Below, piece by piece: positions 29,717-34,136 of a stretch of DNA of 38,138 bases. A program made the translations under genes and the position numbers. The DNA is taken from positions 1 to 38,138 of the IMG/VR virus record IMGVR_UViG_3300043424_000660, one strand, 5' to 3'. How positions within the stretch are numbered: position 1 is the stretch's first letter; each line of letters starts with the position of its first letter. This DNA comes from a virus. The notes under the pieces were generated by a model that ran no database searches, had not been told where the DNA came from, and saw only the letters and a program-made list of their open reading frames with translations.

Positions 29717-30181
29717 ATGTATTCAATCCAAGATAATTTATTCGACCTCGAGCCAATTACTAAAAGTGATTTGCTACTGAGCGGTAATGATAATTGCAGG
29801 CTTGGAGTTGTAACTGAAATGATTTTTGCAACCATAATGCTCGAGCGTGGTTATGATGTTTTTTCTCCGCTTGGGCATTCGCAAAAAGCCGATTTAATTG
29901 TTCATAAGCCACCATTTAAGTCCAAAGCAATACAAATAAAAAAAGGAACATCACGCGGTGGAGCTTCTTGGCAAATATCAACCTCCACAAAAAAAAGAAC
30001 AGCATCTGAAGGATCGGTTTACACAAATTACCAAATTGGGGATTTCGATATTTTAGCGGCTCATATCGCTGAAGTTGACTGCTGGGCCTTGTGGCGAATT
30101 GAAGAAATAGCGGGAAAAAGCTCGGTAACTTGGAACAAGTTTGAAACGCATAGGAACAATTTCGATTTATTAGATTTATGA
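29717..30181 (+). CDS. PD-(D/E)XK endonuclease (PDDEXK_11-like), AT-rich cargo
   Basis: 154 aa from the ATG at 29717. Catalytic pattern: Glu34 in GVVTEMIFATIML, Asp59 in HSQKADLIV and Gln73/Lys75 in AIQIKKG, followed by YQIGDFDILAAHIAEVDCW, the layout of small homing or repair PD-(D/E)XK nucleases. The whole gene and the next one (29717-30405) are strikingly AT-rich against the surroundings, with codons such as ATA, AAA and TTA. This signals recent transfer into the replication operon. It overlaps its partner gene at ATGA. It could be a mobile nuclease, a host-attack enzyme or a defence-type moron. Confidence 0.75.
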   Translation: MYSIQDNLFDLEPITKSDLLLSGNDNCRLGVVTEMIFATIMLERGYDVFSPLGHSQKADLIVHKPPFKSKAIQIKKGTSRGGASWQISTSTKKRTASEGSVYTNYQIGDFDILAAHIAEVDCWALWRIEEIAGKSSVTWNKFETHRNNFDLLDL

Positions 30182-30405
30182 AAGTATATTTATGCAAATG
30201 GCCTGATGGGACGATCAGCATCCTTACAGCTAATTCAAAAAGAGAATTGTATTTGCTTTTAGATTACGAGGGCGATCCGGAGCAGGCTAATGTTTATAAG
30301 CTGCCTAGCGGGTTTCACATATCAACGGAGGTAATTAACAGAAAAATCTCAGCCGATATGTGCGGATATTTTGCAGAAGCCAAGTGCAGGAAAGTAAAAT
30401 TTTAA
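30178..30405 (+). CDS. Partner of AT-rich nuclease, hypothetical
   Basis: 75 aa, AT-rich like the nuclease it overlaps. The sequence begins MKVYLCKWPDGTISILTANS and includes LLLDYEGDPEQANVYKLP. Not recognised. Its coupling to the nuclease (ATGA) and shared base composition say the two arrived together; it may be an inhibitor or accessory subunit. Confidence 0.6.
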   Translation: MKVYLCKWPDGTISILTANSKRELYLLLDYEGDPEQANVYKLPSGFHISTEVINRKISADMCGYFAEAKCRKVKF

Positions 30406-30406
30406 C

Positions 30407-30604
30407 ATGCTCCCTGAAATTACCCTCCGCCTAGCCATTTGCGCGAACGCCTGCCCGATCGGCCCACGGCTCGAGCGCGGCACGCCGTTGCCACCCTACC
30501 AGCGCACTTATGCGCTGGAGGATCAGGCGAAGGCGGAGGCGGACATGGAGAAGGTGCGGGAATACATCGAACGGAATCACAACTTAAAGAAGGGGAGGAA
30601 ATAA
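30407..30604 (+). CDS. Small hypothetical protein
   Basis: 65 aa. The C-terminal half is a predicted amphipathic helix (EDQAKAEADMEKVREYIERN) and ends in KKGRK. GC returns to the phage average here, marking the end of the AT-rich cassette. It is one base from the next gene, in the replication operon. Not recognised. Confidence 0.5.
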   Translation: MLPEITLRLAICANACPIGPRLERGTPLPPYQRTYALEDQAKAEADMEKVREYIERNHNLKKGRK

Positions 30605-30605
30605 G

Positions 30606-31058
30606 ATGGCCGGTGAATGGTTGAAAATCGAGCATCATGTGGCTGAAAAGCCCGAGGTGCTACAAATCGCGGCGACCTGCGAGATGGACCCGGATTTAGT
30701 GGTCGGCAGGCTCGTGAAGGTGTGGGCCTGGGCGTCCCGAAATTGTCCTGCCGGGGGAAGGACACACATCGCAGCGATGCCACATTTGAACACGATCGGG
30801 GGGCACGAACGCTTCGCACAAAGTATGGTCGAAGCGGGCTGGTTGAAGATCAAAGACACGGAAATGACCTTCGTAAACTTTGACCGCCACATAAGCCAAA
30901 GCGCTAAGGAGCGAGCACTTAACGCGGCGAACAAGGCGAAGCAACGGAGTCCCGATTATGTCCCGAAAATGTCCCGATCCGAGAAGGACAAAAAAGGGAC
31001 TAGAGAAGAGAAGAATAAAGAGCGCTCTAGCGAGCGCTTTCTCCCGACCTGCGTATGA
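30606..31058 (+). CDS. Putative helicase loader / replisome organiser
   Basis: 150 aa. The N-terminal ~100 residues (WLKIEHHVAEKPEVLQIA; DLVVGRLVKVWAWASRN) resemble the winged-helix domain found at the front of phage replication organiser proteins. The C-terminal tail is very basic (SRSEKDKKGTREEKNKERSS). The following gene, overlapping at ATGA, is a DnaB-type helicase, so recruitment of that helicase to the phage origin is the likely role. Confidence 0.65.
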   Translation: MAGEWLKIEHHVAEKPEVLQIAATCEMDPDLVVGRLVKVWAWASRNCPAGGRTHIAAMPHLNTIGGHERFAQSMVEAGWLKIKDTEMTFVNFDRHISQSAKERALNAANKAKQRSPDYVPKMSRSEKDKKGTREEKNKERSSERFLPTCV

Positions 31059-32326
31059 CACCGAGCGCAAAGATTATCCCGATGGTTCCCTCTGTGCCGA
31101 TCAATGAAACTGCGGAGAAGGCGGCGATCTCGTGCATCCTGCAAAACTTCGAGTGCCTGAGGGTGATGTCATGGCCGGAGGAGTTGTTTTTTAGCGAAGC
31201 GCACCGGATCGTGCTAGCGGTGGTGAAGGAGCTGGCCGAAAAGGGCGTGGCGACGGATCCGCTGGCGGTGCAGGCGAAGCTGGAGCAAAAGGGGCTGCTG
31301 GATGCCATGGGGGGCATCGATGAGTTCACGCGGCTCATGGACTACATTCGCACGAGCGACCCGGGGACGGCGGCGATTTACCGCTCGAACTTGATCGATG
31401 CGGCGCGTTACCGGCGGGCGCTGGCCGCGGTGCGGGATGCGGAGCGGGCCTTTGTGCGCCAGGAGGGGGACATCGCGGCGGTGTCGCTGGCGCTATCGGA
31501 GGCGGCGATGATGGTGGACCGGCCGAGGGAGAGCACGAAGGACCTCCTGCTCAAACTGACGGAGGAACTCGAAAACCACACGCCTGCGGAGGCATTTGGC
31601 ACCGGCATCGATCGTCTGGACCGCTGGACGAATGGCGGCGTCAAGCGGGGTGAACTCCTGACGATCGGCGCGCCGACCTCGGGCGGTAAGTCGATCCTGC
31701 TCCTCCAGATGGCAGTGCAGGCGGTCCTCGCTGGCAAAAAGGTGGCGGTCTTCAGCCTCGAGATGCCGGCCACCCAAGTCCTCGCTCGCATGGTCTCGCA
31801 CTTGGCGGGCTTTAATGTCGGCGTCTTCCGCATCGCGGGCGCCAAGGGAGCGGTCAACAAGGACATGCTGGCAAAATTCAACTCGGCGTCGGGGTTGATT
31901 TCCCAATCCGGCCTCGTGGTGGAGTCGGGCTTCACCGACATGGAGTCGATCGACGCCTCGGCGCGTGACCTCGCGGGCAAGGGCGAAGCCGACCTCGTGA
32001 TCGTGGATTATGTGCAACTCGTCCACCTGCGGGCCATGGCCTCGAACGAGACGCGCGAGCAGCATGTCTCGGAGATCACCCGGCGGCTCAAGGCGCTGGC
32101 CCTGCAACTCAACATCGCGGTCGCCACGGCCAGCCAGCTCAACGAGGACGGCAAACTGCGCGAATCCCGCGCCATCGGGATGCACTCCGACCATGTCTGG
32201 ATGATCCGCCACGGAGACGAATCTTTCATTTCGCTCGACAAAAACCGCGACGGCGAGCGCGGCCACGCGGTGCCGGTCCAGATGGACGGCGCCATCGCCA
32301 AATTCACCCAACAACAAGACTCATGA
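31055..32326 (+). CDS. DnaB-like replicative helicase
   Basis: 423 aa, near the usual length for phage DnaB. The N-terminal domain (PINETAEKAAISCILQN; FFSEAHRIVLAVVKEL) is the DnaB-N fold. The RecA-like core has Walker A GAPTSGGKS at about 207-215, SLEMP after it, Walker B LVIVDYVQL at about 311-319, and later ATASQLNEDGKLRESRAI. It unwinds DNA at the phage fork. Its stop region overlaps the 3' end of the antisense HNH gene by six bases. Confidence 0.92.
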   Translation: MTPSAKIIPMVPSVPINETAEKAAISCILQNFECLRVMSWPEELFFSEAHRIVLAVVKELAEKGVATDPLAVQAKLEQKGLLDAMGGIDEFTRLMDYIRTSDPGTAAIYRSNLIDAARYRRALAAVRDAERAFVRQEGDIAAVSLALSEAAMMVDRPRESTKDLLLKLTEELENHTPAEAFGTGIDRLDRWTNGGVKRGELLTIGAPTSGGKSILLLQMAVQAVLAGKKVAVFSLEMPATQVLARMVSHLAGFNVGVFRIAGAKGAVNKDMLAKFNSASGLISQSGLVVESGFTDMESIDASARDLAGKGEADLVIVDYVQLVHLRAMASNETREQHVSEITRRLKALALQLNIAVATASQLNEDGKLRESRAIGMHSDHVWMIRHGDESFISLDKNRDGERGHAVPVQMDGAIAKFTQQQDS

Positions 32327-32923
32327 ACAAATTAAAAAATACCTTTTATTCAAATCATCAAACCCAAGGATGTTTTTCTTTAATAACTCTTTTACGCAGA
32401 GATTTAAACTCCCGTGCGCCAATAAGTGAGCTCTTCCATTTGCTAACAACGAAAGGTTTGACGGGTCGTTATTATGAGGATCGCAATCAATATGATGAAC
32501 GACCTCGTGCGATTCTAGCATTCTACCAATCTTTTTTTCCATCACAGCGCGATGCTCGTAAATCCTACCATGGTGAGCTTTTGGATGATTCGGCATCCAA
32601 ATTCTTAAAGCAGTCTTTCCATTTGATCGCACCTTTTCTGTTTTTTCTTTCCATGCGTGATGGTTTTTGCCGCTTCGTTGAAATATCCAGCATTTTTTAC
32701 TGCATGTTAGCTTTTCTCCACGCTTCGATATATCAGAAACCGATCTCAGCGTGTTTTTTCCACAAATGCAACATTCAGCATATCTCCAATAAAACCTTTG
32801 CCCTTTAGGTCTAAATTTAGTGACTTTTCTTTCATAAAATCTCCCATCACCCAAATCAAAAAGCAACTTACCTTTATGTTTAAATGATTTCGTCATGTCG
32901 TCTGATTGAAAATTTGCAGGCAT
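32321..32923 (-). CDS. HNH homing endonuclease, antisense insert
   Basis: 200 aa on the minus strand (a second ATG at 32896 gives 191 aa). An N-terminal zinc-ribbon (ECCICGKN, CSKKC) is followed by the HNH core: YEHRAVMEKKIGRMLESHEV, VHHIDCDPHNNDPSNL with the HH and N residues, and a final His in GRAHLLAHG. Strongly AT-rich against flanking genes. Free-standing HNH genes of this type move by cutting neighbouring alleles. It sits tail-to-tail with DnaB and head-to-head with ruvC, so it probably invaded a dnaB-ruvC junction. Confidence 0.9.
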   Translation of the reverse strand: MPANFQSDDMTKSFKHKGKLLFDLGDGRFYERKVTKFRPKGQRFYWRYAECCICGKNTLRSVSDISKRGEKLTCSKKCWIFQRSGKNHHAWKEKTEKVRSNGKTALRIWMPNHPKAHHGRIYEHRAVMEKKIGRMLESHEVVHHIDCDPHNNDPSNLSLLANGRAHLLAHGSLNLCVKELLKKNILGFDDLNKRYFLICS

Positions 32924-32965
32924 ATCAAAACTATACTCAACAAAGAAAATAAATCAAAGAAAAAA

Positions 32966-33412
32966 ATGAACATTTACATTGGCATTGACCCTGGAATTAA
33001 CGGAGGGATTGCCGTTATTCATTCTAATTCTGCGGTAGCATATAAAATGCCGCAAACTAACAGCGATTTGTGGGAATTGATTTTAGAAATAAAAGAAATT
33101 TCCAAAATTGAAGAGCTGCATATTAAATGCTGCCTAGAGGCTGTATCTTCAAGCCCGCAAATGGGCGTTTGCTCGGCATTTACTTTTGGTCAAGGATTTG
33201 GCCATCTTGAAATGGCTCTTACTGCCGCACGCATCCCTTACGAGCGAATCCGCCCGCAGGCATGGCAGAAGGCAATGGGGTGTTTAACCAAGGGCGACAA
33301 GAATGTGTCGAAACGCCGGGCGCAGGAGCTTTTCCCAAGCCTCAAGGTCACGCACGCCGTGGCGGACGCGCTGCTCATCGCCGAATTCAACCGGAGGACG
33401 GCACGGCCATGA
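32966..33412 (+). CDS. RuvC-like Holliday junction resolvase
   Basis: 148 aa from the ATG at 32966. Retroviral-integrase-type fold with acidic residues in IYIGIDPGINGGIAVI (D8), CCLEAVSSS (about E58) and THAVADALLIAEFN (near residue 136). It resolves branched DNA before packaging. The first ~265 bases are AT-rich like the HNH gene next door, while from about 33230 the gene switches sharply to the phage's high GC. The overlap with the next gene is ATGA. Confidence 0.85.
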   Translation: MNIYIGIDPGINGGIAVIHSNSAVAYKMPQTNSDLWELILEIKEISKIEELHIKCCLEAVSSSPQMGVCSAFTFGQGFGHLEMALTAARIPYERIRPQAWQKAMGCLTKGDKNVSKRRAQELFPSLKVTHAVADALLIAEFNRRTARP

Positions 33413-33633
33413 GCTACGACGACAAGGGGTGCCGCGAACTCATGTGCGCTTTCATTCGCCAGACCGTGTTCGATGTGGATGCCAAGACGGATTTTGCGAA
33501 CAAAAACAAGAACGCCGAGTGGGAACTCCACAAGGCCAGCGCGATCCATTTCATACGCTCCCCGATTTTTGTCTCCCTCTGCCGAACCCTTCGACTCCCT
33601 GCCGACAAAATCCAACGCCGAGCCTTCCAATGA
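33409..33633 (+). CDS. Hypothetical phage protein
   Basis: 74 aa from the ATG overlapping ruvC. It is helical and charged (VDAKTDFANKNKNAEWELHK; HFIRSPIFVSLCRTLRLP). Small proteins of this length often follow DnaB/RuvC in phage early operons. No named family is recognised. It overlaps the next gene as ATGA. Confidence 0.6.
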   Translation: MSYDDKGCRELMCAFIRQTVFDVDAKTDFANKNKNAEWELHKASAIHFIRSPIFVSLCRTLRLPADKIQRRAFQ

Positions 33634-34136
33634 ACACCTTCACCGCACGCGACGGCGAACCTGCCTATATGCCCGACCTCGACATTGATTCACCCGAAGA
33701 CATCCTCGCCGATGAACTCGGCACGACGCCGGCCGTCGCCCGCAAGGTCATGGCCATGCTCCAAGCCGCCGAGGTTCGTCAGCAGGCGCTCACGCTTGGC
33801 AAAGTCGTCGGGCTATTGCTCGAGACCAACAACCTCCCCGTCATGGCGAACGCCATCGCCTTCGCCGCCGGCCTCGACCAGCTCAACGGCAAAAAGTCCC
33901 AGGCCGAAGTCGCGCGGGAGCTAAAGGTCACACGCGCTCTTGTCTCCCACTATGTCGTCGGGGTTCGGGATTTCCTATCAGGCAAAAGCCAGACATTCGA
34001 CTGCACCAAGTTCCGTAAGTCCAACAAGTCGCGCCAGACCTTCAGAGAGAAAGCGACGGATCCATTCACGGCGGCCAAGGCGGCTGCCATCGCAAGATAC
34101 AAAGCCAGTAACCACATAACAAAAAAATGCAACTAA
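33630..34136 (+). CDS. HTH DNA-binding protein, candidate late regulator
   Basis: 168 aa from the ATG at 33630. A helix-turn-helix is visible in SQAEVARELKVTRALVSHYV at about 91-110, preceded by a long helical region and followed by a basic tail (RKSNKSRQTFREKATDPF). It is the last sizeable regulator before the packaging genes and so a candidate for switching on late transcription; the sequence alone does not establish this. It overlaps the following gene by ten bases. Confidence 0.6.
   Translation: MNTFTARDGEPAYMPDLDIDSPEDILADELGTTPAVARKVMAMLQAAEVRQQALTLGKVVGLLLETNNLPVMANAIAFAAGLDQLNGKKSQAEVARELKVTRALVSHYVVGVRDFLSGKSQTFDCTKFRKSNKSRQTFREKATDPFTAAKAAAIARYKASNHITKKCN

Follow-up and report, generated by a model that had tools for sequence, protein, structure and literature searches.

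The mobile ORFs of fungal mitochondria (Allomyces atp6; Glomus atp6, atp9, cox2 and nad3) bring with them a foreign gene end, which takes the place of the native one, as described in the available portion of PMC3630166, within which the Allomyces case is itself cited. Introns with N-terminal duplications are described from Tremella in the accessible part of PMC7315562. In T-even phages, free-standing enzymes of the HNH and GIY-YIG types co-convert their flanks when they home (PMC2988022, available text), and HEG islands sit at the boundaries of phage gene exchange (PMC10448857, available text). The window analysed here is the whole stretch of 38,138 bases that makes up positions 1-38,138 of the IMG/VR virus record IMGVR_UViG_3300043424_000660, and in it an HNH gene lies next to a resolvase gene of two-part composition. 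We assign a probability of about three in four to the reading that this is a free-standing HNH homing element, placed antisense upstream of a ruvC/MOC1-type gene and carrying a diverged replacement ruvC 5' end, with putative cleavage by the HNH protein.

The HNH gene between dnaB and ruvC

The upstream neighbour is a dnaB-like replicative helicase gene on the plus strand (31055..32326; Pfam DnaB_C, E 1e-35; PHROG 19), whose end is overlapped by the stop codon of the minus-strand HNH endonuclease gene (32321..32923; 200 aa; GC 0.375; Pfam HNH_3 PF13392, E 6e-9). The HNH_3 domain, residues 123-160 (32444..32557, minus strand), is kept in 4/4 distinct HNH types, with scores of 35.8 bits for the window, 34.6 for L004, 33.0 for L119 and 32.6 for L120, all above the curated cut-off of 24.8 bits. 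The HNH motifs are conserved across carriers and pN is well below pS among homologues (e.g., 0.21 vs 0.77 with L004), and by this measure the HNH protein is under purifying selection. An AT-rich spacer (32924..32965) separates the divergent starts of HNH and ruvC, and promoter-like matches in 32250-33050 are at chance level. The ruvC gene (32966..33412, plus strand; 148 aa) has its own start after HNH and consists of an AT-rich 5' part, codons 1-88 (32966..33230), which would have been brought by the element, and a native high-GC 3' part (33231..33412) with 95% aa identity to L005 and L009.

In HNH-free loci, dnaB and ruvC touch or nearly so; in the closest of these loci, the start codon of ruvC and the stop codon of dnaB overlap as ATGA. 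The position of this old native start is marked in the window by ATGAA (32323..32327, plus strand), where HNH-free relatives read ...TCATGAAACT(A/C)TACAT and the window reads TCATGAA followed by CAAATT, departing from the native sequence right after ATGAA; blastn alignments of the window to natives stop at 32326-32327. The earlier note had proposed a search for HNH-free relatives with dnaB running into a high-GC ruvC, and these make up 31 of 41 non-redundant dnaB-ruvC loci, with another insert of about 0.9-1 kb in 7/41 and this HNH in 3/41. The HNH gene is thus present or absent between orthologous flanking genes (3/41 vs 31/41), as in free-standing homing endonuclease systems. HNH genes are often located in introns, and the contigs are metagenomic, which would speak for a group I intron, an intein or an assembly chimera, but we regard this explanation as scarcely credible: the full ruvC has its own start after HNH, and the same architecture occurs in six contigs with six different sample numbers. 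A group I intron was rejected, as Rfam gave no match up to E 1 at any of four loci. The HNH gene accordingly stands outside any intron or intein, again as a free-standing homing endonuclease gene does.

Other cargo occupies the dnaB-ruvC junction of the relatives L010, L031, L093, L095, L097 and L024, L025, L027, L038, L063; it is of two kinds, a 288-aa ORF without a Pfam match and a 197-aa ORF together with a 6-pyruvoyl tetrahydropterin synthase-like ORF, and both kinds are found with both dnaB types. The same replication module of the window holds a second AT-rich island (29718-30423; GC about 0.38) with a PD-(D/E)XK endonuclease ORF (Pfam PDDEXK_5, E 1.5e-9; PHROG 5018) and a 75-aa ORF; it looks like another nuclease insertion, because in L083 its flanks are only about 20 bp apart.

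The fold model of the HNH protein is poor (pLDDT 58) with no structural match at E 0.001 or better, a PDB sequence search with the HNH profile gave no match, and the 203 records returned from named phages are all below 60% identity, with none covering 80% of the query. The 98 ruvC records from named phages are likewise all below 60% identity, and no match was found for the element DNA in plasmids or for 31055-34100 of the window in phages. In G003, the record of L119, a second, distant HNH-profile match lies at C1:15594-15860 (E 1.5e-5). Most of the antisense HNH gene stays open when read on the sense strand in the phase of the old ruvC start (32323-32808, with counterparts in L004, L119 and L120), and in the four distinct HNH genes this frame holds 5, 1, 2 and 1 stops vs 9.1, 8.1, 8.9 and 6.4 in synonymous shuffles. 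A low-stop lean is shared by 110 control ORFs (mean z -0.91, minimum -4.09), which still included a few variants or opposite-strand ORFs of HNH, and with codon-junction dinucleotides fixed the P values are 0.047, 0.16, 0.02 and 0.29; since the controls lean likewise and the openness is weak once dinucleotides are fixed, we do not claim the open frame as an HNH-specific signal.

Composition and relatives of the two parts of ruvC

The GC content of the window ruvC is 0.41 over the first 265 nt vs 0.63 over the remainder, or 0.366 in codons 1-62 vs 0.630 in codons 95-end (0.35 vs 0.80 at third positions), and the reading frame is unbroken across the change. In 124 distinct ruvC homologues that lack HNH, the GC of the 3' part minus that of the 5' part averages 0.018 (sd 0.047, maximum 0.111), vs 0.264 in the window, 0.236 in L004 and 0.227 in L003, and because the difference is small in the HNH-free homologues the break is no property of ruvC itself. 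The earlier note had described just such a GC break beside the antisense HNH gene with the frame intact, and these controls bear it out. The break, at about 33230, coincides with a statistical recombination breakpoint zone (33216..33247, plus strand; ruvC nt 251-282) located by the informative-site scan, which in the AlphaFold model falls about where helix 68-87 yields to strand 92-95. In the case of L119 (0.45/0.48) and L120 (0.45/0.52) there is little GC break, and their genomes are about 48-50% GC.

The two parts of the window ruvC, divided at codon 88, differ in their closest relatives; identical closest relatives would, according to the earlier note, have refuted its reading. Against the HNH-free relatives L005, L009 and L026, the 5' part has 52-54% aa identity, with extra codons in a loop, and the 3' part 93-95%. 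The 5' part is 100% identical to that of L003 and 69-72% identical to those of L004, L119 and L120, and HNH identity to the window is 100% for L003, 73% for L004, 65% for L119 and 62% for L120. DNA trees were built separately for codons 1-62 and 95-end from 38 of the 129 distinct ruvC sequences: in the first, the five distinct types of carrier all fall together as a single clade (support 99/97), and in the second the carriers need 5 changes and constraining them to a single clade is rejected at p-AU 6.7e-5. The same shape is seen in protein trees of the full 129 distinct ruvC sequences (5' clade support 97; 5 changes for the 3' part), though in the protein AU test of the 3' part, with 129 rows and 54 columns, a single carrier clade is not rejected (p 0.121). 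The 3' part of L004, for example, groups with L098, L041, L099 and L042, and not with the window. By identities and trees alike, the window ruvC is a recombinant gene.

Recent sharing of sequence is visible between the window and L003, which is identical to L064. Over 1004 bp (32234..33237) the window differs from L003/L064 at one position, 32708, a silent change in HNH, vs 20 mismatches in the preceding 313 bp and 21 in 33286-33405; beyond the tract the next differences are at 33238 and then from 33286 on. The synonymous difference between the two is 0.008 in HNH, 0.000 in ruvC codons 1-62 and 0.368 in codons 95-end, and their dnaB genes are 70.7% identical over the first 420 nt and 94.6% over the remainder. 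In its own backbone L003 is closer to HNH-free contigs (e.g., 96.8% identity with L037 as far as the dnaB stop). No exact upstream limit can be given for the tract, since the HNH-free relatives compared as DNA also share the last ~70 nt of dnaB, with identity or near-identity. An alternative in which HNH inserted before ruvC and the first half then drifted AT-rich with no recombination would account for the 5' part being the one nearest the insert, but the zero synonymous difference there vs 0.37 in the 3' part, the extra loop codons, the clustering of 5' parts from distant carriers and a remnant of native ruvC in L120 leave it a very small chance.

The shared tract also bears on the source of the element. 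It continues beyond the GC break for about 55 nt of high-GC ruvC, in which there is 1 difference, vs a median of 8 differences over the same ~55 nt in HNH-free pairs, of which 4.8% have 1 or fewer; the donor of the most recent transfer was therefore probably itself already hybrid, and not a low-GC phage. The earlier note had taken the hybrid resolvase to be a product of homing with DNA copied from a low-GC donor. The hybrid gene and its link to HNH are supported, since the relatives of the two halves differ and the HNH-free dnaB-ruvC order exists. The donor portion fared worse. A one-step direct co-conversion from a low-GC donor phage would fit an element of GC 0.37-0.41 within a backbone of about 60% GC, but no low-GC carrier and no HNH-free owner of the 5' part were found among the viral and genome contigs scanned, the tract shared with L003 continues beyond the break and the other carriers show separate hybrids, and we consider it distinctly improbable. 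Among genome contigs, the HNH profile search gave 0 relatives in 49 stretches, and the 5'-part profile search gave no carrier and 1 distant relative (44%).

Separate hybrids, linkage and a displaced native start

Profile scans of IMG/VR (2.9 million viral contigs) with HNH and with the ruvC 5' part return the identical six contigs, which bear six different sample numbers in their names; they represent only five distinct types, and every one is metagenomic. Viral scans with four-type profiles likewise return only the six carriers, and every genome found to have the 5' part also has HNH. By informative-site scan, native ruvC sequence resumes at nt 251-282 for the window and for L003 and at about 185-255 for L004; for L119 and L120 the zone is roughly 192-240 and varies with the native chosen as reference. 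The dnaB adjoining the L004 element is only 56% identical to that of the window, and the gene neighbourhood of L119 and L120 is a different one, with a dnaB match in neither locus and a cytosine methylase gene upstream in L120.

In L120 a native ruvC start, to KMPG, is kept upstream of HNH, and it matches the natives L136 and L167 at 26/28 aa vs 15/29 for the L120 element copy. L119 has a similar start, to KMPET, upstream of HNH, but at 19/29 to natives vs 16/29 to its own element copy it is ambiguous. Of the native start only ATGAA remains in the window and ATGAAAC in L004. As the remnants differ in length, the insertion points differ as well, at codon ~2 (window, L004) and codon ~31 (L119, L120). 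Judged by these sequence features, hybrid ruvC genes occur in at least three backgrounds. In each hybrid the foreign ruvC piece is in frame with the native remainder, as in mobile ORFs of the fungal type, and the shared tract, trees and breakpoints indicate that a co-converted flank accompanies the HNH gene, as it does with free-standing homing endonucleases.

Ordinary phage mosaicism, in which exchange happens at the dnaB-ruvC junction and general recombination swaps a block made up of a ruvC 5' part and HNH, the latter as passenger, draws on the other cargo at the junction in 7/41 loci and on the mosaic phage genomes around the locus. It is nonetheless an unlikely account, although one that carries some weight: the pairing of HNH and 5' part is identical in 6/6 contigs found, ruvC is native and of even GC at the loci that have other inserts, blocks ending inside the gene recur in separate lineages and HNH is conserved under selection. 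An old portable combination of HNH and ruvC 5' end would be the better unit to describe these loci than one accidental co-conversion.

Proposed homing route and known counterparts

For a homing element that carries a replacement 5' end, the nuclease would cut or nick ruvC of an HNH-free phage within the part that is later replaced, and repair off the carrier would copy both the HNH gene and the carrier ruvC 5' part. Copying would cross back to the resident ruvC in a conserved stretch, about codons 62-94, and the product would be an intact hybrid resolvase whose new 5' part presumably lacks the cut site. We infer cleavage of ruvC by the HNH protein, and with it the cut site, the resistance and the direction of transfer, from the arrangement of the sequences. 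Native ruvC between codons ~31 and ~62 is lost in every carrier, and the putative cut site is therefore best guessed in or next to codons ~31-62. A good MOC1/RuvC resolvase fold is predicted for the hybrid protein: its model has a pLDDT of 90 and a best PDB match to ZmMOC1 (E 8e-10, TM 0.80), with RuvC structures ranking from 12 onward among the PDB structure matches. Residues D8 and E58 are invariant and D134 is nearly invariant in 22 sequences, and we take these three to be the catalytic residues.

In the carriers and their relatives, homing that alters a section of a core recombination gene would be documented in nature, with the natives identified along with the hybrids, the breakpoints and one displaced native start. 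Recipients would be made immune, with the resolvase still working, if the cut site is in the replaced part, and such immunity, if true, would explain how a nuclease lives off an important gene with neither intron nor intein. Codons ~31-94 of native ruvC provide a testable target. Resolvases of Holliday junctions act in the very kind of repair by which the element would be copied; to have one as the target makes the case more interesting but is no evidence of a special link.

The closest resemblance is to the fungal mobile ORFs, which, like the locus here, join an endonuclease ORF to a foreign piece of the host gene, with in-frame replacement and a hybrid gene as the outcome (PMC3630166, available text). 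According to the same portion of that source the native end that was displaced stays next to the ORF, a feature that is clear here in L120 and ambiguous in L119. The fungal cases it describes have a replacement C-terminal end and a downstream ORF of LAGLIDADG or GIY-YIG type, whereas the phage element substitutes the N-terminal end and has an ORF of HNH type, antisense and upstream. The Tremella introns described in the accessible part of PMC7315562 also exchange an N-terminal gene fragment via a homing element, but that system is intron-based and mitochondrial, and no intron was found at the phage loci. SegF, SegG, MobA and MobE share with the present case a free-standing gene between core genes and flank co-conversion (PMC2988022, available text); their cut site is apart from the gene and the HNH members nick one strand, in the account given there, and HNH activity here is predicted. 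The portion of PMC2988022 available describes for them no lasting replacement gene segment or displaced native start, unlike what is seen here. In HEG islands, too, nucleases mark the borders of exchanged blocks (PMC10448857, available text), but in contrast to the islands as that text presents them, the border here is inside a gene and recurs in separate lineages.

Searches of open-licence papers turned up no phage case with the layout of HNH plus a replacement gene 5' end. We lean slightly towards regarding HNH and the ruvC 5' part as a heritable "gene-mending" unit, which would break the resident resolvase gene and mend it with its own cut-proof 5' end, present in at least three phage lineages with entry at codon ~2 and ~31, and which would be the phage counterpart of the fungal mitochondrial mobile ORFs in mirrored orientation. 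On the best reading of the sequences, HNH and the ruvC 5' part extend known co-conversion and parallel those fungal ORFs, as a case of intronless homing with a carried replacement gene end.
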